Source: a bacterium (lineage in GTDB: Bacteria; ARS69). From it: a stretch of DNA of 18,086 nt. Position 1 is the stretch's first letter; the number at the start of each line of letters is the position of its first letter. The stretch lies in NCBI GenBank assembly GCA_025774865.1, contig JALGZO010000700.1:1-18086 (forward strand), written 5' to 3'. Shown here in pieces: positions 98-18,086 of this stretch. Under the pieces are notes generated by a model. The model searched no databases. It had not been told where the DNA came from and worked only from the letters and a program-made list of their open reading frames with translations. The position numbers and the translations under genes were made by a program.

Positions 98-301
98 ATG
101 GAGATCCTGCTCGCGCTCGGCGTCTTCGGGGGGGCCGTGGCGCTCCTGTCCCTCGGAACCCTCTACTTCCGCCGGCCTCTCAAGGGCTCCTGTGGAGGCG
201 TGGCCGCCGCGCTGGGTGAAGACGCGGATGAGACCTGCAGCGTGTGCGGGCGATCCACCTCCGACTGCCCCGACGGAGCTCCCGAGAAGGCCGCTCAGTA
301 G
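98..301 (+). CDS. nqrM: NqrM, Na+-NQR maturation factor
   Basis: This 67-residue protein has an N-terminal membrane helix (about residues 2-23). It then has the family signature GSCGG (Cys32) and a Cys-rich tail (CSVCGR, then DCPDG) with Cys47, Cys50 and Cys57. Length, the single helix and four cysteines match NqrM (DUF539). NqrM is required to assemble Na+-NQR, probably by delivering iron for the centre held between NqrD and NqrE in the membrane. The partner subunits are encoded at the far end of this window, about 13 kb away on the opposite strand, instead of next door. No ribosome binding site is visible before the ATG; the preceding bases are C-rich. The start is kept because it places the helix at the N-terminus, as in homologues. 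Confidence 0.9.
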   Translation: MEILLALGVFGGAVALLSLGTLYFRRPLKGSCGGVAAALGEDADETCSVCGRSTSDCPDGAPEKAAQ

Positions 302-511: not shown

Positions 512-3500
512 ATGCTTCAACGGCTACTCGCTGTTCTTGGCACGGTCGTCTTCATTTCCGGAGCCACCGCTCACGCCACCGAAACTCAGATCACGAACGA
601 TACTTCGAGTGACCAGCGCCCCGCCTGGTCGCCCGACGGAAACACGATCGTCTTCGATTCGAATCGTTCGGGGGTCCGCGACCTGTGGTTGGTTCCCGCC
701 GCCGGCGGAACTCCCACGCAGCTCACCACCAACGTCGAACTCGACCAACATCCGGACTGGGCGCCGGGATCCGATACGATCGTCTTCAGCGCCATCGTCG
801 GGGGCGGCCTGCCCGACATCTACACGATTCCCGCGACTGGCGGATCGCCCACGCTGCTGATCGCGGACGCCGGAACCAGCGACCGCTTCCCCGCCTGGTC
901 GCCCGACAGCACGCAGATCGCGTATTCCCGCGACTCCGACATCTACGTGGCGCCGGCCTCCGGTGGCACGCCGGTCCAGATCACCACGGACCCCGGGACC
1001 GATCTGCACCCGACCTGGTCCCCGGACGGTACCCAGATCGCGTTCCTGTCGAACCGGACCGGGAACAACGACATCTGGATCATCCCGTCGACCGGCGGCA
1101 CCGCGACCCAGCTCACGACGGATCTTGCGAACGACGGAGCTCCGGATTGGTCTCCCAGCGGAGGGTTGATCGCCTTCCAGTCGAACCGGAGCGGCAACAA
1201 CGACATCTGGATGATCCCGGCCGGCGGCGGCACCGCGATCCAGCTCACGACCACGGGCGGGAACGACGTGCAGCCGGACTTTTCGCCGGACGGCTCGGCG
1301 ATCGTGTTCGCACGCGCGAACAACATCTGGGTCACCACGCTCCCGGAGGCCGACCTGTCGATCGACAAGACCGTCGACAACGCGGTCCCATCCGAGGGCG
1401 ACGCGATCCAGTTCACGGTCACGCTCACGAACGACGGTCCGGACGCAACGACCGGCATCGAGGTCACCGATCTGCTGCCGATGGGACTCACGTTCCAATC
1501 GTTCGTCGCATCCTCCGGCAGCTACGCCAGCGGCACCGGACTCTGGACCATCGCGAGCCTCGCGAACGGCGCGAGCGAGACCCTCTCGATCACTGCCGTG
1601 GTCGACAGCGGGACCGCCGGCACCATGATCGTGAACACCGCGGCCGTGACGGCGTCGGATCTCCCCGACCCGAATTCCGGCAACGACTCCGGCAGCGCCA
1701 CGGTGAACGTCGCCGGGATCGTCGCCGGTTCCTTCACGCAACTCACGGACGTCGGCGCCAGCGATCAGCGTCCCGCCTGGTCGCCGGACGGCGCGACGAT
1801 CGTGTTCGACTCCAACCGGACCAGCGCCCGCGACCTGTGGTTGATCCCGGCCATCGGCGGCACCGCCACCCAGCTCACGTCGAACGTCGAGATCGATCAG
1901 CACGCCGACTGGGCGCCCGGCTCCGCGAGGATCGTGTTCAGCGCGATCGTCGGAGGCGGCCTGCCGGATCTCTACGAGATCCCGGCGTCGGGCGGACCGC
2001 CCACTTTGCTCTTCGCCGATCCGGAGACCAACGACCGGTTTCCGGCCTGGTCGCCCGACAGCACCCAGATCGCGTACTCCCGCGACAACGACATCTACGT
2101 GATGCCGGCGGGCGGCGGCACTCCGGTTCAGATCACGACCGATCCCGGCGTCGATCTGCACCCGACGTGGTCGCCGGACGGCGCCCAGATCGCGTTCCTG
2201 TCGAATCGGTCGGGCAACAACGACATCTGGATCATCCCGTCGACCGGTGGGACCGCCACGCAACTCACGACACACTCGGCGAATGACGGGGCGCCCGACT
2301 GGTCGCCCGATGGCGCGCAGATCGCGTTCCAGTCGAATCGCACCGGCAACAACGACATCTGGCTGATCCCCGCGGCTGGGGGTGTCCCGGCGCAGGTCAC
2401 GACCAGTGCCGGCAACGACGTTCAACCGGACTGGTCGCCCGACAGCCGGCAGATCGTCTTCGCCCGCAACAACAACCTCTGGATCTTCTCGTATCCGAGC
2501 GCGGACATCGGCGTATCGAAGATCGTGGACAATGAGAATCCGAACGAAGGCGACACGATTCAGTTCACGATCGACGTGACGAACCACGGTCCGTTCGATG
2601 CCACCGGCGTCGACGTGACGGACCTGTTGCCGGTCGGCCTCACGTATCAGTCCGACACGCCCACGGCCGGGAGTTACGACTCCGGTAGTGGCGTCTGGAC
2701 CGTCGGCGCGCTGGCCGACGGCGTGACCGAGACGCTCACGATCGCCGCCACCGTGGACGGCGGCACGGGTGGCTCGAGTCTCGTCAACACCGCTTCCGTC
2801 ACGGCGTCGAGCCCCCTCGACCCCAACACCGCGAACGACTCCGACCTCGCCGTCGTCTTCGTCAAGAGCGTGGATCTCGCGGTCGTGAAGCAGGTGGACA
2901 ACCCGAATCCGAACGAAGGCGACACCGTCGAGTTCGCGGTGTTCCTCGTCAACTTCGGTCCGAGCGTGGCCACGAACGTGCAGGTCACGGATCTCGTTCC
3001 CGCGGGACTGACGTACGTGTCGTCGAGCACGTCGCAGGGAACGTACGACGAAAGCACCGGAGTCTGGGACGTCGGCACCAAGGCGCCCGGCGCCACCGAC
3101 GCCGACACGCTGACGATCACGATCACGGTCGACGCCGGCACCGCCGGCCAGACGATCGAGAACGTCGCGACCGTCACGCAGGTGACGGAGGCGGACGGCA
3201 ACCCGCTCAACGACAGCTTCTCGGCGTTCCTGACGATTCAGTCCGCCGACCTCGGCGTCGTGAAGTCGGTCAGCGACCCGACGCCCACCGAGGGGGACGA
3301 CATCTCCTACCTCCTCGTCTTGACGAACACGGGGCCGAACGACGCCACGAACGTGCAGGTGTCGGAGCCATTGCCGGCCGGAGTGACCTTCACTTCCGAC
3401 GATCAGACCAAGGGTACCTACAACCCGGGCACCGGCCTGTGGGAGGTCGGGAGCATCCCCGCGTCCGTGTCCGACACGCTGACCGTCCTGGTCTCGGTCG

Positions 3501-6500
3501 ACGCCGGCACCGGCGGCTCGACGATCACGAACACCGCCACCGTCCTCGGCGCGGACCAGGGCGACCCGAACCCCGCGAACGACATGGACAGCGCCAGCAT
3601 CGACGTGCAGCTGCCGGTGCTCGGCACGGAAACCCAGATCACGACCGCCGGCAGCGACCAGCGCCCCGCCTGGGCTCCCGACCAGTCCGGCATCGTGTTC
3701 GACTGCAACCGGAGCGGCAATCGCGACCTGTGGGTCATTCCCGTGAGCGGCGGCACGGCCACGCAGCTGACGACGAACATCGAGATCGATCAGCACGCCG
3801 ATTGGTCTCCCAGCGCGACGCGGATCGTGTTCAGCGCGATCATGGGCGGCGGCCAGCCCGATCTGTACGAGATCCCGGCCGGCGGCGGTACGCCGGTGCT
3901 TCTATTCGCGGATCCCGGGACGAACGACCGCTTCCCGTCCTGGTCGCCGGACAGCACGCAGATCGCGTACTCGCGCGACGCCGACATCTACCTCATGCCG
4001 GCGGGCGGCGGCACTCCGACCCAGCTGACGACGGATCCGGGCAACGATCTGCACCCGAGCTGGTCCCCGGACGGAACGCAGATCGTGTTCCTCTCGGATC
4101 GGAGCGGCAACAACGATCTCTGGGTGATCCCGTCGACGGGCGGCACCGCGACTCAGATCACGACCAACCCCGCGAATGACGGCGCCCCGGACTGGTCGCC
4201 GGACGGATCGCGGATCGCGTTCCAGTCGAACCGCGGCGGCAACAACGACGTCTGGGTCATCCCGTCCACGGGCGGCACCGCGACGCAGATCACGACGACG
4301 TCCGACAACGACGTGCAGCCCGACTGGTCGCCGAGCGGCGGTCAAATCGTCTTCGCGCGGAGCAGCAACCTCTGGAAGTTCGCGTTCACCGGTGCCGACC
4401 TGCAGCTCGAAAAGACCGTGAGCAACGCGAGTCCGAACGAAGGCGACTCGATCGACTACGTGGTTTCCGTCACGAACAACGGCCCCGACGCCGCTTCCGG
4501 GGTTTCGCTGTCCGACGTGCTCCCGGCGGGGGTCTCATTCCAGTCCGCCGCCGCGTCCCAGGGCAGCTACGACAACGGCACCGGCCTCTGGTCGGTGGGC
4601 TCGCTCGCTGTGGGTGCCTCGGCCATCCTCACCATCACCGCCGAGGTCGACCCGGGCACGGGGGGATCGACGATCACGAACAGCGTCGGCGTCGCCGCGC
4701 TCGATCAGATTGATCCCGGCCCGGCCGACGACACCGCGTCGGTGGACATCACGGTCCTGAGCGCGGACGTCGCGGTGACGAAGACGGTCGACGACGACAC
4801 GCCGAACGAAGCGCAGACGATCACCTACACGGTCGCCGCGACGAACCTGGGGCCGGACGCCGCCACCGGCGTCGTGCTCACGGATATCCTCCCGGTCGGC
4901 GTCACCTTCCAGTCGGCCGTGACGACGCAGGGCAGCTACGACAATGGCAGCGGGCTCTGGGATGTGGGCGCTCTCGCGGTCTCCGACGCGGACACCTTGA
5001 CGATCACGGCCACGGTCGATCTCGGCACCGGGGGCACGATGATCACGAACACGGCGAGCGTGACGGCGGCCGATCAAGCCGATCCGGAGGGCGCCAACGA
5101 CTCCGACAGCGCCGACATCACGGTGGGCGTCCCGGCCGTCGGAGTCGAGACGCAGATCACGACCGCCTTGAGCGACCAGCGCCCGGCGTGGGCCCCGGAC
5201 GGCGCCGAGATCGTGTTCGACTCGAATCGAAGCGGGAATCGCGACCTCTGGTCCGTGCCGGCTGGCGGCGGCGTCGCGACCCAGCTGACCACGAACATCG
5301 ATCTCGATCAGCACGCCGACTGGTCCCCGGACGCGTCCAGGATCGTGTTCAGCGCGGTCATCGGCGGCGGTCTGCCGGACCTCTACACGATCTCGCGGAC
5401 CGGCGGCACCCCCGTGCTGCTTCTGGCCGACGCGGCCACGACCGACCGATTCCCGGCCTGGTCGCCGGACAGCACCCAGATCGCGTACTCCCGAGACAAC
5501 GACATCTACGTCGTTCCGGCCACCGGCGGCACGCCGGTCCAGCTGACGTCCAACCCGGCCACGGACCTCCATCCGAGCTGGTCGCCGGACGGAACGCAGA
5601 TCGTGTTTCTCTCGAACCGGAGCGGAAACAACGACCTCTGGATCATGGCGTCGACCGGCGAGCCGGCCACCCAGCTCACCACGCACTCCGGGAACGACGG
5701 GGCTCCCGACTGGTCTCCCGACGGAACGAGAGTCGCATTCCAGTCCAATTGCGCCGGAAACAACGACGTGTGGATGATCCCCTCCGGAGGTGGCACGGCG
5801 ATCCAGGTCACCTCGACGACGTCCAACGACGTTCAGCCAGACTGGTCGCCGAGCGGCGGTCAGATCACGTTCGCGCGCGACGGCGGCATCTGGGCGACGG
5901 CGCTGTTCGGGGCGGATCTCGGCATCAGCAAGGCCGTGAGCGACGCGGCTCCCAACGAAGGCGACCTCATCGACTACACCGTCACCCTGACGAACCAGGG
6001 TCCGGACGACGCCACGAACGTCACGGTGGCCGACCTGCTACCGTCCGGCGTTACGTTCCAGTCGAGCGCGGCGAGCGCGGGCACCTACGACGACGGGACG
6101 GGCGAGTGGAGCGTCGCGGGTGTCGGAGCCGCCACCTCGGAGACGCTCACGATCAGCGTGACCGTGGACCCCGGCACCGGCGGCTCGACGATCACCAACA
6201 CGGCGAGCGTGACCGGGCTCGACCAGACGGATCCCGGCGGCGCTGACAACTCCGACTCCGTGGACATCACGGTGCCGAGCGTGGACCTCGCGGTCGGCAA
6301 GACGGTCGACGACGGAACGCCGAACGAGGGCGAAACGATCAACTACACCGTCGTCGTGACCAACAACGGACCGGATGGAGCCACGGGCGTCGAGGTCACC
6401 GATCTCCTCCCCGCGGGCGTGACCTACCAGTCCGACTCCTCGACGCAGGGCGCTTACATCAGCGGCACCGGCCTCTGGACGGTCGGCGCGATGGCGCCCT

Positions 6501-9500
6501 CCGAGAGCGACACGCTCACGATCACGGCGACCGTGGACCCGGGGACGGGCGGCACGACGATCACGAACACCGCGAGTCTCACCGGTTCCGATCAGGCGGA
6601 CTCGAATCCCGCGAACGACTCGGACTCCGCGGACATCACGATCCCGAGCGTGGACCTCGCGGTCGCCAAGACGGTCGACGACGGCTTGCCCCACGAGGGC
6701 GACACCGTCACCTACACGGTCGACGTCCAGAACCTCGGACCGGACGACGCGACTGGCGTCGAGGTCACGGACCTCCTGCCGGCTGGCGTCACGTACCAGT
6801 CCGACACCCCCTCGGCCGGCAGCTACGACGACAGCAGCGGCGTCTGGACGGTCGGGGACCTGGCCAACGGCGCGGCCGAGACACTCACGATCACGGCGTC
6901 CGTGGACGCCGGCACGGCCGGCTCGACGATCACGAACACCGCGAGTCTCACCGGTTCCGATCAGGCGGACTCGAATCCCGCGAACGATTCGGATTCGGCC
7001 GACGTCGTCGTGAGAAGCGTGGATCTCGCCGTTACGAAGTCCGTGGACAACGGCGCGCCGGCGGTGGGCGACGACGTCACCTACACGGTGACCCTGACGA
7101 ACGACGGGCCCGAGGCGGGGACCACGGTCGGCGTCACCGACCTTCTGCCGGCGGGGGTCGCCTTCCTCTCCCACACCCTGAGCCGCGGCGACTACGACAG
7201 CAACACCGGCTTCTGGGCGATCGGTACGGTCGGCGTCGGAGTCAGCGACACGCTCACGATCACTGCCCGAGTGCTCTCCGGCACCGCCGGCACGACGGTG
7301 ACGAACACGGCGAGCATCACCTCCGCCGATCAGGGTGATGCGAATCAGGCGAACAACACCGCCTCCGCCGACATCGACGTGCTCGAAGCGGGCGCGCTGA
7401 CGATCTCGTCCCAGACGGACCGAACGTTCTTCGTGGGCGATCCGGCCACGACGATCAGCCCGTTCACGGTGACCGACGACCTGGCCGTGGTGACCGCGGC
7501 GAACGACCTTCGCATCCGGATCCCGGCCGGCTTCAGCATGGACTGGGACACGTCGATCACGACGGCCACGATCGCGGGCTCGGCGGCCGGGAAGGTCGCC
7601 TCCTCGGTGACGTACGAAGACGGCGGCCAGACGCTCGTTCTCGACGTCTCGGCTGACTTCGACGCCGGCGATCAGATCGTCGTCTCCAGCCTGAAGTTCA
7701 CGAACTTCTCCGCCCCGGCGACCCCTGAGCGGCTCGAGCTCGAGGTCGCGAACGACGGAGCCGTCTCGGCGCTCGACGACCGGACGGTCGGCATTCTGGA
7801 GGCCGGGCCCATCGCGACCCGTTCGACCGCGATCGAGATCACGCCCGACGGCCAGGAGGTCTGGGTCGTGAACCCCGACCACGGCACGGTCGCGGTGATC
7901 GGCACCCAGGGCGCGAACGAGAACGTGAAGCTCGCCGAGATCAGCGTGGGGGCGCAGCCGTGGACCCTGGACATCCACCCGTCGAACGGCGAGGTCTGGG
8001 TCGCTTCGCTCGGAGCCGATCACGTCTACGTCATCGACGGCGCCTCGCGGACCGTCGTGGACTCCATTGCAGCCGGATTCGAGACGTTCGGCGTCGCGTT
8101 CAGCCCGGACGGATCGCTCGCGCTCGTCACGGCCAGCGGCTCGGACGAGATCTTCGCGATCGATGTCGCCTCGCGGACGATCACCGAAACCTTCGATTCG
8201 TTCGAGGAGCCCCGAGGCATCGCGTGGCGCGCCGACGGTGAGCGGGTCTGGGTCAGCCACCTGACCACGACGCGACCCTACGCCCTGCTGACGACGGTGT
8301 TCACGGGGTCGTGGACGCTATCGAACGTCGCGCTGACGCCGATCGTCGACGACACGCTCGGCGGTGTGCCCAACACTCTTCAGAACCTGACGGTGGGGCC
8401 GGCCCCGGGTGACTCCATTCTGTGGGTCCCGAACGTGCTGGAGAACAGTGCCGCGGGAGCCCTGGCCGGGAATCCGCTGACGCCCTCGAGCACGCTCCAC
8501 GCGACCATCCGGCTCGTGAACGTCCGGCCCCTCGAGCCGAGCGATCTCGACCAATCGACTTACTACCTCAGCGAGTCCGGGACGCCGGTCTCGGGTCCGA
8601 CCGCGGTCGACTTCAAGAACGGCAAGGCGTACGTCGCGAACATGAGCTCCGACGACGTCACCGTCCTGACCGACGACTTCCTGGACCCGGCGGAGATCAC
8701 GGTGCTCGCCGCGGGTCAGGCGCCGATCGGCGTCGTCACCCACCGGACGCTCGACCGGGCGTACGTGGCGAACTGGCTCAGCCGTGACGTCACGGTCCTG
8801 GACACCGATACCGACACCGTGGTGACCACGGTCGGCACCACCACGAGCGAGCCGCTCACTGCACAGCTCCTGAACGGCAAGCGCCTCTTCTTCACGTCGA
8901 CCGGTCAAATGTCGGAGGACAACCGGATGGCCTGCGCGTCCTGCCACGCGTTCGGTGCGAACGACGGTCAGGCCTGGGATCTCAGCCAGTTCGGACGCCA
9001 CGTCCGGGCCACGCCTGATCTCCGCGGCAGCGGCTCGTCGCTACCGCTCACCTGGACGGCCGGCTTCGACGAGATGGGCGACCTCAACCACGAGATCGTC
9101 GACCTCATGGGCGGCGGCGGGCTCATTCCGGGCGGCGGCAACCCGCCCCTGGGGGAGCCGAACGACGGACTCAGCCAGGACATGGACGACATCGGAGCGT
9201 GGCTCGCCAGCCTCGAGCACCGGAGCGACACCCCGGCGCTCCTTCCGGGAGGGCGGCTCTCGAACGCCGCGCTCGCCGGCCGGGAGATCTTCGACGATCC
9301 GATGGTCGGATGCGCCGACTGTCACTCGGGGCCGCGCTTCACCGACAGCGCGCTCCACGAGAGCCCGTTCCTGAAACACGACGTCGGCACGTGCGACCCC
9401 GGCGACGAAGACGCCGGGCTCGGATTCGACACGCCGTCGCTCATCGGAGTTTGGACGACCGCTCCGTACCTGCACGACAATCGGGCGGCCTCTCTCCAGG

Positions 9501-9940
9501 AAGTCTTCACCACGCACAACCCGGACGATCTCCACGGGACCACCTCGCACCTGAACGCGGCGGAGATCGACCAGCTGGTGGCGTTCCTCGAGTCGATCAC
9601 CCTGAATGCCGGTCAGGGCGGCGCGACCGATGCGGGGGTCGATCTCCCGTTCGCGATGCGAACGCAGTTCCAGGCGGTCTTCCCGAACCCGTTCGCGGCC
9701 GAGACGTCGCTTCGGTTCTCGCTCGAGAGTCCGAACTCGCAGGTCGTGATCGAGATCTTCAACATCGAGGGGCGGAGGGTCAGGACGCTCCTCGACCGGC
9801 GGATGCCCCGCGGCAACCACGTGGTGGGTTGGGACGGCCGGAACCACGGCGGCCAGGCCGTCGCGGCCGGGTTCTACTACGCGAGGCTGATCGTCGACGG
9901 TGAGAGGAAGGGCGGGAAGAAGATGACGCTCCTTCGTTGA
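512..9940 (+). CDS. Giant secreted PD40/DUF11 repeat protein with diheme peroxidase and sorting domains
   Basis: The protein has 3142 residues. A Sec signal peptide (1-22, cleavage after AHA) precedes the mature chain. Four six-bladed PD40/TolB-like propellers lie at about 23-278, 408-662, 1037-1293 and 1543-1799. They are followed by 1, 3, 2 and 4 DUF11 domains, ten in all, with a period of about 123 residues. Residues about 2291-2430 form an unassigned beta-rich linker, and 2430-2785 a YVTN-type propeller. About 2786-3040 is a cytochrome c peroxidase/MauG-like domain with CASCH (2808-2812), CADCH (2934-2938) and the family motif APYLHDNRA (Tyr2986, His2988). About 3052-3142 is a FlgD-Ig/type IX-style sorting domain starting PNPF. 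The ATG follows AAAGGGG at 499-505 with 6-nt spacing. The protein is expected at the cell surface or outside the cell with covalent haem. Its substrate and role are unknown; DUF11 and PD40 suggest scaffolding or binding. No frameshift or internal stop was found. Confidence 0.93.
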   Translation: MLQRLLAVLGTVVFISGATAHATETQITNDTSSDQRPAWSPDGNTIVFDSNRSGVRDLWLVPAAGGTPTQLTTNVELDQHPDWAPGSDTIVFSAIVGGGLPDIYTIPATGGSPTLLIADAGTSDRFPAWSPDSTQIAYSRDSDIYVAPASGGTPVQITTDPGTDLHPTWSPDGTQIAFLSNRTGNNDIWIIPSTGGTATQLTTDLANDGAPDWSPSGGLIAFQSNRSGNNDIWMIPAGGGTAIQLTTTGGNDVQPDFSPDGSAIVFARANNIWVTTLPEADLSIDKTVDNAVPSEGDAIQFTVTLTNDGPDATTGIEVTDLLPMGLTFQSFVASSGSYASGTGLWTIASLANGASETLSITAVVDSGTAGTMIVNTAAVTASDLPDPNSGNDSGSATVNVAGIVAGSFTQLTDVGASDQRPAWSPDGATIVFDSNRTSARDLWLIPAIGGTATQLTSNVEIDQHADWAPGSARIVFSAIVGGGLPDLYEIPASGGPPTLLFADPETNDRFPAWSPDSTQIAYSRDNDIYVMPAGGGTPVQITTDPGVDLHPTWSPDGAQIAFLSNRSGNNDIWIIPSTGGTATQLTTHSANDGAPDWSPDGAQIAFQSNRTGNNDIWLIPAAGGVPAQVTTSAGNDVQPDWSPDSRQIVFARNNNLWIFSYPSADIGVSKIVDNENPNEGDTIQFTIDVTNHGPFDATGVDVTDLLPVGLTYQSDTPTAGSYDSGSGVWTVGALADGVTETLTIAATVDGGTGGSSLVNTASVTASSPLDPNTANDSDLAVVFVKSVDLAVVKQVDNPNPNEGDTVEFAVFLVNFGPSVATNVQVTDLVPAGLTYVSSSTSQGTYDESTGVWDVGTKAPGATDADTLTITITVDAGTAGQTIENVATVTQVTEADGNPLNDSFSAFLTIQSADLGVVKSVSDPTPTEGDDISYLLVLTNTGPNDATNVQVSEPLPAGVTFTSDDQTKGTYNPGTGLWEVGSIPASVSDTLTVLVSVDAGTGGSTITNTATVLGADQGDPNPANDMDSASIDVQLPVLGTETQITTAGSDQRPAWAPDQSGIVFDCNRSGNRDLWVIPVSGGTATQLTTNIEIDQHADWSPSATRIVFSAIMGGGQPDLYEIPAGGGTPVLLFADPGTNDRFPSWSPDSTQIAYSRDADIYLMPAGGGTPTQLTTDPGNDLHPSWSPDGTQIVFLSDRSGNNDLWVIPSTGGTATQITTNPANDGAPDWSPDGSRIAFQSNRGGNNDVWVIPSTGGTATQITTTSDNDVQPDWSPSGGQIVFARSSNLWKFAFTGADLQLEKTVSNASPNEGDSIDYVVSVTNNGPDAASGVSLSDVLPAGVSFQSAAASQGSYDNGTGLWSVGSLAVGASAILTITAEVDPGTGGSTITNSVGVAALDQIDPGPADDTASVDITVLSADVAVTKTVDDDTPNEAQTITYTVAATNLGPDAATGVVLTDILPVGVTFQSAVTTQGSYDNGSGLWDVGALAVSDADTLTITATVDLGTGGTMITNTASVTAADQADPEGANDSDSADITVGVPAVGVETQITTALSDQRPAWAPDGAEIVFDSNRSGNRDLWSVPAGGGVATQLTTNIDLDQHADWSPDASRIVFSAVIGGGLPDLYTISRTGGTPVLLLADAATTDRFPAWSPDSTQIAYSRDNDIYVVPATGGTPVQLTSNPATDLHPSWSPDGTQIVFLSNRSGNNDLWIMASTGEPATQLTTHSGNDGAPDWSPDGTRVAFQSNCAGNNDVWMIPSGGGTAIQVTSTTSNDVQPDWSPSGGQITFARDGGIWATALFGADLGISKAVSDAAPNEGDLIDYTVTLTNQGPDDATNVTVADLLPSGVTFQSSAASAGTYDDGTGEWSVAGVGAATSETLTISVTVDPGTGGSTITNTASVTGLDQTDPGGADNSDSVDITVPSVDLAVGKTVDDGTPNEGETINYTVVVTNNGPDGATGVEVTDLLPAGVTYQSDSSTQGAYISGTGLWTVGAMAPSESDTLTITATVDPGTGGTTITNTASLTGSDQADSNPANDSDSADITIPSVDLAVAKTVDDGLPHEGDTVTYTVDVQNLGPDDATGVEVTDLLPAGVTYQSDTPSAGSYDDSSGVWTVGDLANGAAETLTITASVDAGTAGSTITNTASLTGSDQADSNPANDSDSADVVVRSVDLAVTKSVDNGAPAVGDDVTYTVTLTNDGPEAGTTVGVTDLLPAGVAFLSHTLSRGDYDSNTGFWAIGTVGVGVSDTLTITARVLSGTAGTTVTNTASITSADQGDANQANNTASADIDVLEAGALTISSQTDRTFFVGDPATTISPFTVTDDLAVVTAANDLRIRIPAGFSMDWDTSITTATIAGSAAGKVASSVTYEDGGQTLVLDVSADFDAGDQIVVSSLKFTNFSAPATPERLELEVANDGAVSALDDRTVGILEAGPIATRSTAIEITPDGQEVWVVNPDHGTVAVIGTQGANENVKLAEISVGAQPWTLDIHPSNGEVWVASLGADHVYVIDGASRTVVDSIAAGFETFGVAFSPDGSLALVTASGSDEIFAIDVASRTITETFDSFEEPRGIAWRADGERVWVSHLTTTRPYALLTTVFTGSWTLSNVALTPIVDDTLGGVPNTLQNLTVGPAPGDSILWVPNVLENSAAGALAGNPLTPSSTLHATIRLVNVRPLEPSDLDQSTYYLSESGTPVSGPTAVDFKNGKAYVANMSSDDVTVLTDDFLDPAEITVLAAGQAPIGVVTHRTLDRAYVANWLSRDVTVLDTDTDTVVTTVGTTTSEPLTAQLLNGKRLFFTSTGQMSEDNRMACASCHAFGANDGQAWDLSQFGRHVRATPDLRGSGSSLPLTWTAGFDEMGDLNHEIVDLMGGGGLIPGGGNPPLGEPNDGLSQDMDDIGAWLASLEHRSDTPALLPGGRLSNAALAGREIFDDPMVGCADCHSGPRFTDSALHESPFLKHDVGTCDPGDEDAGLGFDTPSLIGVWTTAPYLHDNRAASLQEVFTTHNPDDLHGTTSHLNAAEIDQLVAFLESITLNAGQGGATDAGVDLPFAMRTQFQAVFPNPFAAETSLRFSLESPNSQVVIEIFNIEGRRVRTLLDRRMPRGNHVVGWDGRNHGGQAVAAGFYYARLIVDGERKGGKKMTLLR
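578..1345 (+). repeat. PD40 propeller copy 1 (six blades)
   Basis: Six blades carry ordered signatures: DQRPAWSPDG, DQHPDWAPGS, DRFPAWSPDS, DLHPTWSPDG, DGAPDWSPSG and DVQPDFSPDG. Each blade ends in a D-[IL]-[WY] strand and a GGTPTQLT-like turn. This copy follows the signal peptide directly and is the only one with Phe in blade 6 (PDFSPDG). Confidence 0.85.
1349..1732 (+). repeat. DUF11 domain 1
   Basis: A single DUF11 unit begins ADLSIDKTVDN, has the core LTNDGPDATTGIEVTDLLP and ends NTAAVTASDLPDPNSGNDS. DUF11 is an Ig-like fold common in bacterial surface proteins. Confidence 0.85.
1733..2497 (+). repeat. PD40 propeller copy 2 (six blades)
   Basis: The blade order is the same as in copy 1, starting FTQLTDVGASDQRPAWSPDG and ending NNLWIFSYP. 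It is closest in sequence to copy 1 (both share DLHPTWSPDG), with many synonymous differences. Confidence 0.85.
2498..3619 (+). repeat. DUF11 domains 2-4
   Basis: Three units start at 2498, 2867 and 3242 (SADIGVSK, SVDLAVVK, SADLGVVK), with periods of 369 and 375 nt. Each has the [NT]EGD motif, a GP core and the closing pattern NTA-V-DPN-NDS, except that the middle unit ends in the divergent ADGNPLNDS. Confidence 0.85.
3620..4390 (+). repeat. PD40 propeller copy 3 (six blades)
   Basis: It starts LGTETQITTAGSDQRPAWAP and ends NLWKFAFT. Blade 1 carries a Cys (residue 1065, FDCNRSG) where copies 1, 2 and 4 have Ser. Confidence 0.85.
4391..5137 (+). repeat. DUF11 domains 5-6
   Basis: Two units start at 4391 (GADLQLEK) and 4760 (SADVAVTK), with a period of 369 nt. 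Unit 6 has NEAQT in place of the usual NEGDT. Confidence 0.85.
5138..5908 (+). repeat. PD40 propeller copy 4 (six blades)
   Basis: It starts VGVETQITTALSDQRPAWAP, shares the AWAP variant of blade 1 with copy 3 and ends GIWATALF. Blade 5 has a Cys (residue 1747, QSNCAGNND) in place of Arg. Confidence 0.85.
6555..6618 (+). repeat. 64-nt exact direct repeat, copy A
   Basis: This stretch in DUF11 unit 8 is identical base for base to 6924-6987 in unit 9, exactly 369 nt (123 codons) downstream. It encodes the end of the unit, from TITNTASLTGS to the PAND motif. Sequence on both sides differs between the units. Confidence 0.9.
6924..6987 (+). repeat. 64-nt exact direct repeat, copy B
   Basis: This is the partner of 6555-6618, lying in DUF11 unit 9. 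Identity ends at the third base of an Asp/Ser boundary (GAC TCG versus GAT TCG). Confidence 0.9.
8933..8947 (+). other. Haem c attachment site 1 (CASCH)
   Basis: This encodes Cys2808-Ala-Ser-Cys-His2812 of the giant protein. The surrounding sequence LFFTSTGQMSEDNRMACASC is typical of the N-terminal haem of diheme cytochrome c peroxidase/MauG-like proteins. Confidence 0.85.
9311..9325 (+). other. Haem c attachment site 2 (CADCH)
   Basis: This encodes Cys2934-Ala-Asp-Cys-His2938 in the context GREIFDDPMVGCADCHSGP, matching the second haem site of the same family. It lies 126 residues after site 1, a normal spacing for a diheme domain. Confidence 0.87.
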
Positions 9941-13070: not shown

Positions 13071-13179
13071 GCCGGTGAGAGGGCCGGTGCCTCTCGGTCG
13101 CATCAAGGGCCCGTGTTCCTCTTGGGGTGTGGCATGTTGGAGGGCCCAGCGGACGAGAGGCACCGGCCCTCTCACCGGC
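13071..13179. repeat. Inverted repeat IR-B with 26-bp perfect arms
   Basis: The arms 13071-13096 and 13154-13179 are perfect reverse complements over 26 nt (left arm begins GCCGGTGAGAGGG). The 57-nt loop has two GGGCCC palindromes (13107-13112, 13142-13147). A second copy of the right arm exists at 13275-13300, so the left arm could pair with either. Confidence 0.88.
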
Positions 13180-13335
13180 GCGATGTTTCAACCCGCGTAC
13201 CCGGCGCACTAGCCTCGGTCGCATCAAGGGCCCGGGTTCCTCTTGGGGTGTGGCATGTCGGAGGGCCCAGCGGACGAGAGGCACCGGCCCTCTCACCGGC
13301 GCGATGTTTCAACCCGCGTACCCGGCGCGCTAGCC
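13093..13335. repeat. Two-copy 121-bp tandem repeat ending in the nqrF stop codon
   Basis: Copies at 13093-13213 and 13214-13334 differ at only three positions (GTG/GGG after the first GGGCCC, TTGG/TCGG, GCAC/GCGC near the end). The unit starts within the left arm of IR-B, so copy 2 lacks that arm. Both copies end in CTAGCC. In copy 2 this is, on the - strand, the last Gly codon and the TAG stop of nqrF (13330-13332). Confidence 0.9.
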
Positions 13336-14562
13336 GAAGCTGTCGAAGGCGATCATCGACGGATCGACGCCCAGATCGTCGAGCATCCGCTGGACGGCCG
13401 AGATCATCATCGGAGGGCCGCAAAGATAGTACTCGATCTCCGTGGGATCGGGGTGATCCCTGAGATACAGGTCGTGGCAGACCTGATGAATGAAACCGGT
13501 GGGCCCGTCCCAGTTGTCCTCCGGGAGTGGCTCGGAGAGCGCGAGCTTCCAGTCGAAGTTGTCGAAATCCTTCTTGATGTTGTCGAAGTCCTCGACGTAG
13601 AACGCTTCGCGGAGCGAACGCGCGCCGTACCAGTAGGTCACCTTCCGGTCGCGAGTTTTCAGCGTGTGGAAGAGGTGAAAGAGGTGACTGCGCATCGGCG
13701 CCATTCCGGCGCCGCCGCCGATGTAGCACATCTCCCGTTTCGTGTCCTTGATGAAGAACTCACCGTACGGTCCCGACACGACGCACTTGTCGCCCGGCTT
13801 CATGTTGAAGATGTACGACGACGCGATGCCCGGGGGCACGTCCATGCCCGGCGGCGGGGACGCGATCCGGATATTGAGCATGATGCGATTGCCCTCGGCC
13901 GGATGGTTCGCCATCGAGTACGCGCGGAAGACTTCTTCGTCGTTGGTGGCGTGATAGCGCCAGAGATCGAACTTGTCCCAGTCTCCCCGGTACTCCTGGG
14001 GGATGTCGAACTCCTTGTAATCGAGCTCGTAGGGCGGGATGTCGATCTGGATGTAGCCGCCGGCCTGGAAGTCGAGGGTCTGGCCGTCGTCGATCCTGAG
14101 ATCGAACTCCTTGATGAACGTGGCCACGTTGTCGTTCGACTGCACCGTGCAATCGAACTTCTGAATGCTGAAGACCTCCTCCGGCACGCGAATGGTCATG
14201 TCGTTCTTGACCTTGACCTGGCAGGCGAGCCGCCAGTGCTCCTTCTGCTCCGCCCGGGTGAGGTGGCCGACCTCGGTGGGCAAGATGTCACCGCCCCCTT
14301 CGAGGATCTGGCACTTGCACATCGCGCACGTGCCACCGCCGCCGCATGCGGACGGGAGGAAGATCTTCTCGTTCGACAGGATGGAGAGGAGATTGCCCCC
14401 GGCCGCCACCGTGGGGCTCTTATCGGCGTCGTCGTTGATCAGGATCTTGACCGGCCCCGACGCCACGAGCTTGGACTTCGCCACGCCGAGAAGCATGACG
14501 AGCAGCAGGATCGTCGCGGTGAAGATGAACGTGGACAGACCGACGAGGGTGATGAGCTCCAT
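13330..14562 (-). CDS. nqrF: Na+-NQR subunit F, NADH dehydrogenase component
   Basis: A 410-residue protein and the entry point for electrons. It oxidises NADH on the cytoplasmic face through FAD and a [2Fe-2S] centre. An N-terminal membrane helix (about 4-27) is followed by a ferredoxin domain with Cys73, Cys79, Cys82 and Cys114 (ACGGGGTCAMC, RLACQ), the FAD motif RAYS (213-216), the NADH-binding GGGAGMAPMRSHL (282-294) and CGPPMM (381-386). The C-terminus FDSFG resembles the family's FDDFG end. An extra Cys84 follows the third ligand. The ATG has GGAGG with 9-nt spacing and lies 28 nt after nqrE. The stop codon lies within the downstream tandem repeat. Confidence 0.97.
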   Translation of the reverse strand: MELITLVGLSTFIFTATILLLVMLLGVAKSKLVASGPVKILINDDADKSPTVAAGGNLLSILSNEKIFLPSACGGGGTCAMCKCQILEGGGDILPTEVGHLTRAEQKEHWRLACQVKVKNDMTIRVPEEVFSIQKFDCTVQSNDNVATFIKEFDLRIDDGQTLDFQAGGYIQIDIPPYELDYKEFDIPQEYRGDWDKFDLWRYHATNDEEVFRAYSMANHPAEGNRIMLNIRIASPPPGMDVPPGIASSYIFNMKPGDKCVVSGPYGEFFIKDTKREMCYIGGGAGMAPMRSHLFHLFHTLKTRDRKVTYWYGARSLREAFYVEDFDNIKKDFDNFDWKLALSEPLPEDNWDGPTGFIHQVCHDLYLRDHPDPTEIEYYLCGPPMMISAVQRMLDDLGVDPSMIAFDSFG

Positions 14563-14590
14563 CAGCCGGCTCCTCCGAACGGGCGCCTCA

Positions 14591-15199
14591 TCACAGCTGG
14601 ATCCCGGCGAAGCACTGAAATGCGAGCGCCATGAGCCCGGTCAAGAGCATCGCCATCCCGAGGCCCCGGAGACCCTTGGGGACGTTGGAGTAGCGGATCT
14701 TCGTCCGGATCGCGGCGAGAGCGGTGATCGCCAGTGCGAAGCCGATGCCGGCGCTCGCTCCGAACACGGTCGTCTCCCAGAAGTCGTATTTCCGCTCCAC
14801 CATGAAGAGCGACGAGCCGAGGATCGAGCAGTTCACCGCGATCAGCGGCAGGAAGATGCCCAGCGCCGTATAGAGCCTCTGGCTGTACCGATCGAGGAAC
14901 ATTTCCACGAGCTGCACGACCGCCGCGATCACCGCGATGAACAGGATGAAGTTCAGGAAGCTGAGATCGACGTGCGGCATGCCGGCCCACCCGAGCCCGC
15001 CCTTCTTCAGGAGATACTCGTGGATGACCCAGTTCAACGGCGTGGTGATCGTGAGCACGAAGACGACGGCGGCGCCGAGCCCCATGGCCGTCTCGATCTT
15101 CTTCGACACGGCGAGAAACGAGCACATCCCCAGGAAGTACGCGAGAACCATGTTCTCGACGAAGATCGATTTGGCGGCGAGGTTCAGATAATGTTCCAT
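14591..15199 (-). CDS. nqrE: Na+-NQR subunit E
   Basis: A 202-residue integral membrane protein with six predicted helices, the usual length. Cys26 ([10 protein letters not shown]) and Cys124 ([10 protein letters not shown]) are in the half-helix positions that, with two cysteines of NqrD, hold the intramembrane iron-sulfur centre in known Na+-NQR structures. The start ATG is one nt after the nqrD stop, with GAGG in front (GTCGAGGATCACTAGCATG), so translation is probably coupled. NqrD and NqrE are inverted-topology relatives, and the counterpart in Rnf complexes is RnfA. The full nqrABCDEF neighbourhood excludes Rnf here. Confidence 0.96.
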
Positions 15200-15200
15200 G

Positions 15201-15884
15201 CTAGTGATCCTCGACGTAGCCGGTCCACGTGCGCTGCGCCCAGATGATCAGCCCGAGCAGGATGAAGGCGCCCGGCGGCACGACCATGAGGCCGAGATCC
15301 ACGTAGCCGAGGTCGTACATGAACTGCGGCACGACCTGGACCCCGAAGAGGCTGCCACTCCCGAACAGCTCGCGACCGAACGCAACCGTGCACAGGATCA
15401 CGGAGTAGCCGAGCGCATTGCCGAGCCCGTCGAGAAACGCCTGCCGCGGCGGGTTCGCCATGGCGAACGCCTCGGCCCGCCCCATGATGATGCAGTTCGT
15501 GATGATGAGCCCGACGAACACCGAGAGCTGCCTCGAGACGTCGTATACGAAGGCCTTGAGCACCTGGTCGGCGACGATCACGAGGCTCGCGATCACCGAG
15601 AGCTGCACGATGATGCGGATCTGCGACGGGATCCAGTTGCGAAGCAGGCTGATCACGGTGTTCGACATCGTCAGGACCGCGATCACCGCGAGTGACATCA
15701 CGACGGCGGTGTTCATCTGTACCGTGACCGCCAGCGCCGAGCAGATCCCGAGCACTTGCACCGTGATCGGATTGTTCTCCGAGAGCGGATCGGTGACGAT
15801 CCTCTTCGTTTTCTTGTCGAGCGAGAGGAGCTCGGTGAGCGTCTTGCGCGGAGCCTTGGCCGGTGCCGCCTGCGCGGTGCTCAT
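15201..15884 (-). CDS. nqrD: Na+-NQR subunit D
   Basis: A 227-residue membrane protein, about 17 residues longer than typical because of an Ala/Lys-rich N-terminal extension (1 to about 33) before [17 protein letters not shown]. The conserved Cys48 (GICSALAV) and Cys131 ([16 protein letters not shown]) supply two ligands of the iron-sulfur centre shared with NqrE. The start ATG overlaps the nqrC stop (ATGA) and is preceded by AGGAG with 8-nt spacing, which argues that the extension is real. It sits between nqrC and nqrE in the standard order. Confidence 0.96.
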
Positions 15885-16597
15885 GAGCTCGTCTCCTGTC
15901 GGACCTTGCTGAAGTAGGGCTCATAAGCCCGGAGCGTCCTCGCGACCATTTCCGACACACCCTTCGAAGTGATCGTGGCGCCGCTGATGCCATCGACATA
16001 GTGCTGGAGATCGCCGGGTTCGGGATACCGGTCCGCCGCCGTCCCCTTCACGACCGAGACCGACATGATGCCGCCGTCGTCGGTCAGGATCTTCTTCCCG
16101 ATGAAGTTCTGCTGGAACCACTCCTTCTCGATCTCGCCGCCGAGCCCCGGGGTTTCGCCGTGTTGGTAGAAAGTGATCCCTTTCACCGTGTCGAGATCGC
16201 TCTCCAGGGCGAAATAGCCGTAGAGGGTCGACCAGAGCCCCTTCCCCACGATCGGGAACGTGTAGGCCGCGACCTGACCATCCTGTCGGACCTCGTAGAG
16301 CGGTAGCAGGTCCGGCTCGGAATCCGGGTCCACGTCCGAGGGCGTTCGCCCCTCCAGGACCTCCCCCGCCGGCGTCAGGACGAGCCCCACCAGATTCTCC
16401 TGAAAGGTCCGGCCGACTTCTTCGCGAGTGTGCGCCGCGTCGTAGAGATCCACCGATTTCAGGATGTTCTTCTGGATGTCGAGTTGCAGGTTCGCCTCCT
16501 GGCGATCCCGCAGCCCGATGGCGGCGGCCGAGACCATGAGGCTGCAGGCGAGGCAGATGATCACCGCGAAACGAAGCACCCGCAGGTTCTCAGACAC
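15881..16597 (-). CDS. nqrC: Na+-NQR subunit C, covalent FMN protein
   Basis: A 238-residue subunit with one N-terminal membrane helix (about 8-28) and a periplasmic FMN-binding domain. The flavinylation motif DGISGAT (202-208) is intact, and Thr208 is the expected site of FMN attachment by ApbE. Other family features are GLWSTLYGYFAL (120-131) and HGETPGLGGEI (146-156). The GTG at 16597 is chosen as the start. It overlaps the nqrB stop by 8 nt, has GGAGGAGG seven nt upstream and gives the usual N-terminus (M)SENLR. An ATG at 16633 would add 12 residues and a 44-nt overlap without such a ribosome site. Confidence 0.95.
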   Translation of the reverse strand: MSENLRVLRFAVIICLACSLMVSAAAIGLRDRQEANLQLDIQKNILKSVDLYDAAHTREEVGRTFQENLVGLVLTPAGEVLEGRTPSDVDPDSEPDLLPLYEVRQDGQVAAYTFPIVGKGLWSTLYGYFALESDLDTVKGITFYQHGETPGLGGEIEKEWFQQNFIGKKILTDDGGIMSVSVVKGTAADRYPEPGDLQHYVDGISGATITSKGVSEMVARTLRAYEPYFSKVRQETSS

Positions 16598-17777
16598 GAG
16601 CCAGCCTCCTCCGCATGTTCGCCTTGACGACAAAGTGGTCGATCAAGGGCGCGAAGACGTTCATGAAGAGAATCGCCAGCATGACGCCCTCGGGATAAGC
16701 CGGATTGACGGTCCGGACGAGGATCGACAGAAAGCCGGCGAGGAAACCGTAGATCCACTGGCCCGTGCTGGTCGCGGCCGCGGATACCGGGTCCGTCGCC
16801 ATGAAGACCAGCCCGAAGGCGAACCCTCCGAGCGAAAGCTGCCAGGTCCACGGGAGCGCCATGATGCCGGAGGAGGAGGGGCCGGCGACGGCATTGATGA
16901 AGAACGATCCTCCGATGCCGCCGAGGAGCATCGAGAGCATGATCTTCCAGCTGCCCACTCCGGTCAGGACGAGAATGAGCGCTCCGAGGAGACACGCGAA
17001 CGCGGAAACCTCGCCGAGGCTCCCCGGCACCAGCCCGAAGAACGCATCCTGCAGTCTGAAGCCCGCCTGCTCGACCGCCGCGACCACCGCCTGACCCTCG
17101 TGCTCGGCGGCCACTGCGAGCGGAGTCGCGCCGCTCCAGGCGTCGACGGTCCGGGCGGGATCGACCGCGGTCCACACTTCTCCCGACATGTGCGCCGGAT
17201 ACGCGAAGAAGACGAACGCCCGCGCCGTGAGAGCCGGGTTCAGCACGTTCATCCCGGTCCCGCCGAACACTTCCTTGCCGACGACGACTCCGAAGCTGAT
17301 GCCGGCCGCGACCATCCACAGCGGCAGGTCGGGCGGGCACGTCAGCGGAAACAGCATGCCGGTGACGAGAAATCCTTCGTTGATCTCGTGCTTGCGCACG
17401 ACCGCGAAGAGGACCTCCCACACGCCGCCGGCGACGTAGGACACGATGACGATCGGCAGCATGTGCCAGGCGCCTTGCAGGAAGCACGCGTACCAGGTCG
17501 TCGCCTCGCCGAGCGCCGCGAGCTTCTGCCAGCCGGTGTTGTACATCGCCCACAGGAAGCACGGCATGAGCGCGACGATCACCAGGGACATGAGGCGCTT
17601 GATGTCCATGCGGTCACGCACGTGCGGAGCCCGCCTCGCGGTGACGCCCGGAACGAAGAGGAAGGACTCGTTCGCTTCGAACAGAGGATACGCCCAGCCG
17701 AATTTCCCGCCCGGCTTGAAGAGAGGCTTCAGCTCCTCGAGCTTCTTGTGGAGGTCTCGAGTCTCCTCGAAATCCAT
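16590..17777 (-). CDS. nqrB: Na+-NQR subunit B, covalent FMN and quinone-site subunit
   Basis: A 395-residue polytopic membrane protein, close to the usual length of about 400. After a soluble N-terminus (1 to about 60) come multiple helices. The segment NEGFLVTGMLFPL (133-145) corresponds to the region implicated in quinone and inhibitor binding. GKEVFGGTGMNVLNPAL (167-183) is the family signature. The FMN attachment motif reads DAWSGAT (212-218), with Thr218 as acceptor. NqrB carries the main Na+ path and riboflavin in characterised complexes. It starts 3 nt after the nqrA stop and overlaps nqrC by 8 nt. Confidence 0.96.
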   Translation of the reverse strand: MDFEETRDLHKKLEELKPLFKPGGKFGWAYPLFEANESFLFVPGVTARRAPHVRDRMDIKRLMSLVIVALMPCFLWAMYNTGWQKLAALGEATTWYACFLQGAWHMLPIVIVSYVAGGVWEVLFAVVRKHEINEGFLVTGMLFPLTCPPDLPLWMVAAGISFGVVVGKEVFGGTGMNVLNPALTARAFVFFAYPAHMSGEVWTAVDPARTVDAWSGATPLAVAAEHEGQAVVAAVEQAGFRLQDAFFGLVPGSLGEVSAFACLLGALILVLTGVGSWKIMLSMLLGGIGGSFFINAVAGPSSSGIMALPWTWQLSLGGFAFGLVFMATDPVSAAATSTGQWIYGFLAGFLSILVRTVNPAYPEGVMLAILFMNVFAPLIDHFVVKANMRRRLARV

Positions 17778-17780
17778 CGC

Positions 17781-18086
17781 CTAGCCTTCCTCTTCCGTCA
17801 GGAAATCCTCGATGCCGCCCGCGATGATCTCGCCGAACTCGATCTTCGAGGGACAGACGAACGTGCACAACCCGCACTCCGCACAGTCCTGCAGGCCTAG
17901 CCCCTCCATCTCCTCGAGATCGTTCGCCAGGATGCTCTTCATCAGGTACGCCGGGAAAATGTCGACGGCACAAACATCGTCGTACACGCCCGTCGCGACG
18001 TGCGCGCGGACGCCGCCGCCGAGGTTCGTCGTCAGGTGCGGCTCCTTCACCGGAGCCACCGCACCGGCGTAGGCGCGCCACCGGCT
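17781..18086 (-). CDS. nqrA: Na+-NQR subunit A, C-terminal part (5' end outside window)
   Basis: The frame is open to the window edge and gives the last 101 residues of NqrA, the peripheral subunit implicated in ubiquinone interaction. Segments such as AYLMKSILANDLEEMEGLGL, LCTFVCPSKIEFGEII and the acidic end TEEEG align with known NqrA C-termini. The visible tail contains CAECGLCTFVCP, a CxxCxxCxxxCP pattern like a [4Fe-4S] ferredoxin half-site and like RnfC, the Rnf homologue of NqrA. Well-studied NqrA proteins keep only part of this (LCTFVCP). The gene heads the nqr operon, so its promoter is outside the window. Confidence 0.95.
   Translation of the reverse strand, partial: SRWRAYAGAVAPVKEPHLTTNLGGGVRAHVATGVYDDVCAVDIFPAYLMKSILANDLEEMEGLGLQDCAECGLCTFVCPSKIEFGEIIAGGIEDFLTEEEG

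Follow-up and report, generated by a model that had tools for sequence, protein, structure and literature searches.

The stretch analysed here, hereafter the window (18,086 nucleotides), carries on its forward strand an uninterrupted frame for a product of about 323 kDa with a calculated pI of about 4.05 (Table 1). The purine-rich stretch GAAAGGGGC lies immediately 5' of its ATG. The third-position G+C of the frame keeps within 0.86-0.92 over its whole length, and the other two forward frames contain 72 and 15 stops across the same interval; the frame is therefore a genuine coding gene rather than one open by chance. Its neighbours are an asparagine synthase-like gene, a heptosyltransferase-like gene and the nqr operon. 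A small Cys-rich membrane frame at 98-298 (+) appears NqrM-like by eye, with no NCBIfam match. Furthermore, the intergenic stretch 13071-13335 holds two tandem copies, 97% identical, of a 121-bp repeat with a long, nearly perfect hairpin (DNA fold z -6.95). Contigs C358, C474, C130 and C154 carry single copies with 86-89% identity, and the repeat has the appearance of a dispersed palindromic element. Scanning the window for Rfam families and tRNAs gave no matches.

Table 1. Features of the giant gene and the nqr operon in the window
Feature	Position	Strand	Basis
Giant protein frame	512-9940	+	ATG 512 to stop 9940, 3142 codons, uninterrupted
Sec signal peptide, MLQRLLAVLGTVVFISGATAHA	512..577	+	by eye: charged start, hydrophobic core, AHA site
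PD40/TolB-like six-bladed propeller 1	578..1342	+	PF07676, TIGR02800; own profile 507 bits; model pLDDT 87
DUF11 domain 1	1346..1711	+	PF01345; boundaries from own-copy profile
PD40/TolB-like propeller 2	1733..2497	+	own profile 516 bits
DUF11 domains 2-4	2498..3607	+	PF01345; own-profile boundaries
PD40/TolB-like propeller 3	3623..4390	+	own profile 520 bits
DUF11 domains 5-6	4391..5125	+	PF01345; own-profile boundaries
PD40/TolB-like propeller 4	5141..5905	+	own profile 516 bits
DUF11 domains 7-10	5909..7381	+	PF01345; own-profile boundaries; 369-bp tandem array
Domain X, beta-rich linker, about 140 aa	7376..7801	+	no Pfam match; conserved in relatives
Seven-bladed YVTN propeller, HZS-beta-like	7802..8872	+	TIGR02276; best PDB match 5c2v_B
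Diheme cytochrome c domain, HZS-gamma/CCP/MauG superfamily	8873..9631	+	profile vs 5c2v_C 127 bits; NF052342
Heme c site 1, C2808-A-S-C-H2812	8933..8947	+	CxxCH; aligns with HZS gamma His106
Trp2848, place of CCP/MauG inter-heme Trp (His144 in HZS gamma)	9053..9055	+	invariant in family
Heme c site 2, C2934-A-D-C-H2938	9311..9325	+	CxxCH; aligns with HZS gamma His229
His3008, predicted second axial ligand of heme 2 (HZS gamma His332)	9533..9535	+	alignment
FlgD_ig-type C-terminal tail, predicted T9SS sorting domain	9680..9937	+	PF13860 39.3 bits, cut-off 27
nqrF, E, D, C, B and end of nqrA, Na+-translocating NADH:quinone reductase operon	13333-18086	-	

Modules of the giant protein and integrity of the frame

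The modules and their order named in the preliminary description were recovered by Pfam, TIGRFAM, our own profiles and a CxxCH scan, except that a domain of about 140 residues, domain X, had been overlooked. We set the domain boundaries with profiles built from the giant's own PD40 and DUF11 copies, which gave the stalk order PD40-DUF11-PD40-DUF11x3-PD40-DUF11x2-PD40-DUF11x4. Both families exceeded their Pfam cut-offs, DUF11 with 1084 bits (E=0, ten stretches) and PD40 with 445 bits. Each of the four PD40 copies spans about 255 residues with six W/F-S/A-P-D/S/G blade motifs, and the best fold match of the first PD40-DUF11 unit, modelled by AlphaFold with a mean pLDDT of 87, was TolB. TIGR02800 (TolB) exceeded its cut-off only through the sum of nine stretches, and no tol genes were found among the neighbours in the window. 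Protein identity among the giant's own copies is 69-78% for PD40 and 42-72% for DUF11. In the tree, the four PD40 copies tended to group together with weak support (80/87), and the nearest copy outside them was that of genome G004 (92/93), which suggests that PD40 expanded inside the giant gene. Outside the window, domain X was found on contig C244 of the same genome, twice in G001 C289 (locus L040) and once in G002 C37 (L091).

The source assembly is a draft in 785 contigs, with a completeness of 92.65% and a contamination of 8.3%, and such a repetitive gene in such an assembly could be a chimera of repeats. However, the longest exact repeat within the frame is 64 bp and the next 32 bp, codon bias is even along the frame, and every type of junction has at least one independent counterpart on another contig or in another genome: PD40-DUF11 in G002 (C28 and C37) and G004 (C249); DUF11-X in G001 C289, where the last DUF11 residues precede X, and in G002 C37; X-YVTN in L040 and on C244 of the source genome; YVTN-diheme in the full-length relatives; and diheme-FlgD in L040 and L048. 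On the exact-repeat lengths and the recurring junctions, we rejected an assembly chimera, a very unlikely origin to which we attach next to no weight, and the single uninterrupted frame first described was borne out.

The propeller-diheme head

The YVTN propeller and the diheme domain together form a C-terminal head, for which the closest relative of solved structure belongs to hydrazine synthase (HZS), the key enzyme of anammox. The propeller scored 75 bits against TIGR02276 (cut-off 27.9), and the 3142 residues contain exactly two CxxCH motifs, at residues 2808 and 2934. Pfam CCP_MauG (PF03150) gave 25.5 on the window head against a gathering score of 25.6, which was reached by the relatives L043, L045, L046 and L048 and not by L040 and L042. 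Because this match falls just short, the evidence for a diheme domain is the pair of CxxCH motifs together with the profile matches to HZS gamma and CCP. A profile of eleven heads scored higher against HZS gamma (5c2v_C; Table 1) than against the best peroxidase among the solved structures (CCP, 73 bits), and it matched HZS beta (5c2v_B) with 75 bits; in the propeller part, the same profile scored the S-layer protein 1l0q higher than HZS beta, at 173 bits. In the structural comparison, Foldseek gave 5c2v_B as the best match of the modelled propeller (TM 0.78 of target), and VIA-align gave HZS beta a Z of 38.4 (rmsd 2.2 over 309 residues) and 1l0q a Z of 36.1. The propeller was modelled with a pLDDT of about 80-95 over most blades. 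The diheme part, with an 11-sequence alignment, was mostly under 50 and the X part was also of low confidence; neither was used, and the structural match list for the head covers the propeller only. The predicted heme ligands therefore rest on the alignment.

The heme-binding histidines described for HZS are His229 and His332 at heme gamma-II and His106 at heme gamma-I (PMC12607021, PMC12758564), and we tied the HZS chain numbering to the residues given in these two papers. In the alignment, His106, His229 and His332 correspond to H2812, H2938 and H3008, the last column being His in 10 of 11 sequences, window and HZS included, with one gap. The heme 2 axial ligand is Met in CCP and Tyr in MauG; at the position of the axial Met of Shewanella CCP, the window has H3002 and its nearest relatives L or F. 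HZS Cys165, the third cysteine link to heme gamma-I, is replaced by Met2866. Asp168, near the same heme, corresponds to Asn2877 in a gapped and loosely aligned region, and His144 of the gamma-I pocket falls on a gap adjoining the invariant Trp2848; since these two columns adjoin gaps, both assignments are less sure than that of Cys165. A Trp in place of His144 also occurs in the non-anammox homologues (PMC12758564), and the inter-heme Trp of CCP and MauG has a described role (PMC12758564, PMC6405878). Furthermore, HDVGT and DTPSL-type motifs show little or no variation across the 11 sequences, down to about 30% identity.

Since the HZS-specific active-site residues are absent, the head is not a hydrazine synthase, and hydrazine synthase proper was also ruled out by the score of the HZS beta-gamma model NF052342 (69.2 bits against a cut-off of 1250). 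An ordinary CCP or MauG was rejected as a weaker match than HZS, and the MbnH and MauG models remained below threshold (36.8 and 33.6 bits). Judged by profiles, the propeller structure and the alignment, the head is HZS beta-gamma-like in build and peroxidase-like in its predicted active-site residues. The diheme peroxidase of the preliminary description keeps two predicted heme sites, but it is not a generic one, being a propeller-diheme pair of the HZS beta-gamma kind.

Export, relatives and alpha-like genes

The signal peptide (residues 1-22) is clear by eye. At the other end, the tail exceeded the PF13860 cut-off, and TIGR04183 (T9SS type A sorting domain) gave 21.2 against a cut-off of 23. 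The same genome encodes SprA (531 bits, cut-off 200), has PorV-family matches over cut-off in five places, and contains at least 149 FlgD_ig matches over cut-off. With SprA, PorV, these tails and the signal peptide, the FlgD-type tail is best read as a T9SS tag and is probably that of the lineage, although FlgD_ig is also a general Ig-like fold; this reading agrees with the FCB-type sorting domain proposed earlier. Three cytochrome c assembly hits in this genome make heme attachment possible. A second DUF11 protein with a FlgD tail and at least three DUF11 domains lies in the same genome (G000:C513:2-2371, L030), where the contig edge cuts its frame, and very long frames with nine DUF11 domains each in G002 (C229, L093) and G004 (C42, L095) are other giant surface proteins of the lineage.

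The window's phylum group is represented by five genomes in our set, three of which carry the head over the strict threshold. Among named genomes, the closest relatives are in two metagenome genomes labelled Gemmatimonadota (L040 and L041, 53-55% identical) and in a Candidatus Eisenbacteria genome (L048, 48%), and distant ones at 30-32% identity occur in Cyclobacteriaceae, Lysobacteraceae, Woeseiaceae and Myxococcota. The window head falls in a fully supported clade with L040, L041, L048 and two paralogues from its own genome, as the first branch (85/96, an open fork). What precedes the head varies: a signal peptide alone on C597 of the own genome and in L041 and L048, domain X on C244, a DUF11-X-X-head-FlgD order in L040 (G001), and Big_5 and PKD domains in distant relatives. 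In the Woeseiaceae locus L046 (6497-12697), PA14, a glyoxal/galactose-oxidase-like set, F5/8 type C and PKD are joined to a propeller-diheme head, and this chain could possibly combine a peroxide maker and a peroxide user.

The different N-terminal parts indicate that the head is a stable unit and the rest exchangeable. Since the lineage has head-only paralogues and also a complete 661-residue PD40-DUF11-X-FlgD protein without a head (G002 C37), the giant, as read from these sequences, is a fusion of two module sets of its lineage, the stalk and an HZS beta-gamma-like unit. A further protein with the whole PD40+DUF11+YVTN+diheme order was found neither in the sampled genomes nor in the named ones, an absence that is weak evidence because the named genomes were scanned with two short peptide patterns only. 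Limited literature searches (PD40/DUF11/propeller, DUF11-T9SS, Eisenbacteria surface/secretion) found no paper describing the architecture. The modules and the propeller-diheme unit of the frame are thus each known, but these limited searches met them nowhere else in this combination, in agreement with the earlier view that it is undescribed as a family.

HZS_alpha (PF18582) genes were found in the own genome (G000:C363 and C753; L098, L097), in G001 (C176, L099), in G004 (C32, L100), in G098 (C4, L117) and also in G002. C363 and C753 share sequence at their ends, as if the assembly had broken a single lipoprotein gene in two, with a lipoprotein-type LAGC motif in the N-terminal frame and CxxCH motifs in the C-terminal piece; C363 is 66% identical to its G001 counterpart in the aligned part. 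PF18582 occurs in all four genomes of the window's head clade (own, G001, G004 and the Eisenbacteria genome of L048) and in 8 of the 12 genomes with a full-length head, namely all four of the sampled set (G000, G001, G004 and G086) and four of the eight named ones, against three over cut-off among the 94 sampled genomes without a head. The Fisher figure for the sampled set, 1 in 100,000, is overstated since three of the four sampled carriers share one family, so that the excess of alpha-like genes over background in genomes with the head is suggestive only. Neither the head in the window nor, in the stretches read, any other head of this clade has an alpha-like gene next to it. In G002, which is not an anammox genome, locus L037 (C244, 3-5141) has FG-GAP-like (by eye), HZS-alpha-like (180 bits) and beta-gamma-like frames in a row, the last divergent (170 bits to the beta model) and followed by a four-CxxCH frame; this row resembles the gene clusters described in PMC12758564.

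Proposed function and comparison with known systems

The reading that we favour, with moderate confidence, is that T9SS displays the giant at the cell surface as a long-stalked c-type diheme redox enzyme, which would react with a small oxidant, most likely peroxide, at heme 1; the chemistry of the head is probably peroxidase-like. The chain would be exported by Sec, and in the periplasm the cytochrome c maturation machinery would attach two hemes at C2808/C2811 and C2934/C2937, whereupon T9SS would use the FlgD-type tail to carry the folded protein outward. Provided that this tail serves as an anchor, as it does in known T9SS cargo, the diheme unit would sit near the outer membrane, with the stalk and propellers pointing outward, where they might bind partners or the substratum. 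The preliminary description of a redox head near the C-terminus fits in wording, but that head may therefore lie on the membrane side, with the PD40 propellers distal. The predicted bis-His heme 2 (H2938/H3008) would take or give electrons, which could pass to heme 1 by way of Trp2848, and the open face of heme 1 would react with the oxidant.

The giant might instead be a structural or adhesive protein in which the diheme unit is no longer catalytic and acts just as a structural terminus or a store of electrons. Binding or scaffold repeats do make up most of its mass, the head-less G002 protein shows that the stalk is used without a head, and the window head branches first in its clade, at an open fork. 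However, both CxxCH motifs, His3008 and Trp2848 are retained, and the HDVGT and DTPSL-type motifs have stayed nearly invariant down to about 30% identity, so we regard this alternative as unlikely. We consider it quite unlikely that the diheme unit and the HZS-alpha-like lipoprotein form a surface complex with an HZS-like layout, for nitrogen or small-molecule redox chemistry: the co-occurrence of PF18582 with the head and the linked pair on G002 C244 speak for such a complex, whereas descent confounds the co-occurrence, the HZS-specific gamma residues are absent, and the clade's heads have no alpha-like gene beside them in the stretches read. There is only a slim chance that the giant itself is the stalk-mounted beta-gamma half of a non-anammox HZS-like complex on the surface, with the lipoprotein of the same genomes as its alpha half. 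If a complex of this kind were real, a relative of the anammox reaction system would be on the cell surface of a non-anammox lineage. A MauG- or MbnH-type enzyme that modifies a partner protein, perhaps an adjacent surface protein, by oxidising its residues would agree with the Trp between the hemes and the sub-threshold MbnH and MauG matches, but these matches score half as high as the HZS beta-gamma model, the predicted bis-His ligand is of the HZS type, and no evident substrate gene lies nearby in the window; we hold this to be improbable.

The locus adds a lineage related to Candidatus Eisenbacteria to the carriers of the HZS beta-gamma-like unit. This lineage has the unit both in stand-alone, predicted secreted enzymes and as the terminal part of a 323-kDa protein that T9SS would bring to the surface, and its genomes also carry alpha-like genes. 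This opens to test the role of HZS-like units outside anammox and the use of c-type diheme enzymes as T9SS cargo on giant stalks.

Among known systems, TolB resembles each PD40 unit in fold, but the giant has four propellers in one chain and lacks the TolB N-terminal domain. The archaeal S-layer protein with YVTN and PKD (1L0Q) and DUF11 surface proteins share the YVTN propeller and Ig-like repeats with the giant, but have no heme domain. T9SS cargo with a FlgD-like C-terminal domain resembles the giant in its signal peptide, read here by eye, and in its predicted Ig-like sorting tail, and the giant's genome has SprA and PorV in common with such systems; in contrast, the host here is not a member of the Bacteroidota, and the export of the giant is predicted from sequence. 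The bacterial diheme CCP/MauG/MbnH enzymes (PF03150) share the two CxxCH motifs, the inter-heme Trp, and PYxHDG-like and DTPTL-like motifs, whereas the giant has a predicted bis-His heme 2, with neither Met nor Tyr, and an attached propeller.

To our knowledge, HZS was long held to have no relatives. Its beta-gamma part (Kuenenia 5C2V; fused in Scalindua; NF052342) has the same order of a seven-bladed propeller followed by a diheme domain, and it is the best structural match of the giant's propeller and the best solved sequence match of its diheme part. In the alignment, both CxxCH motifs and the gamma-II axial His are kept, but the giant is without equivalents of gamma Cys165, Asp168 and His144, is fused to a giant stalk and a T9SS-type tail, and belongs to a lineage that is not anammox. 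An HZS beta-gamma-like family is wide outside anammox bacteria (Hagglund et al. 2025, PMC12758564), and its members resemble the giant in their fused propeller-diheme unit, in the Trp for His144, in the lack of conservation of HZS-specific residues and in their non-anammox phyla. The clades of that study were chosen for genes beside an alpha-like gene, whereas the giant's head has none beside it, and in the giant the unit forms the end of a very large protein.
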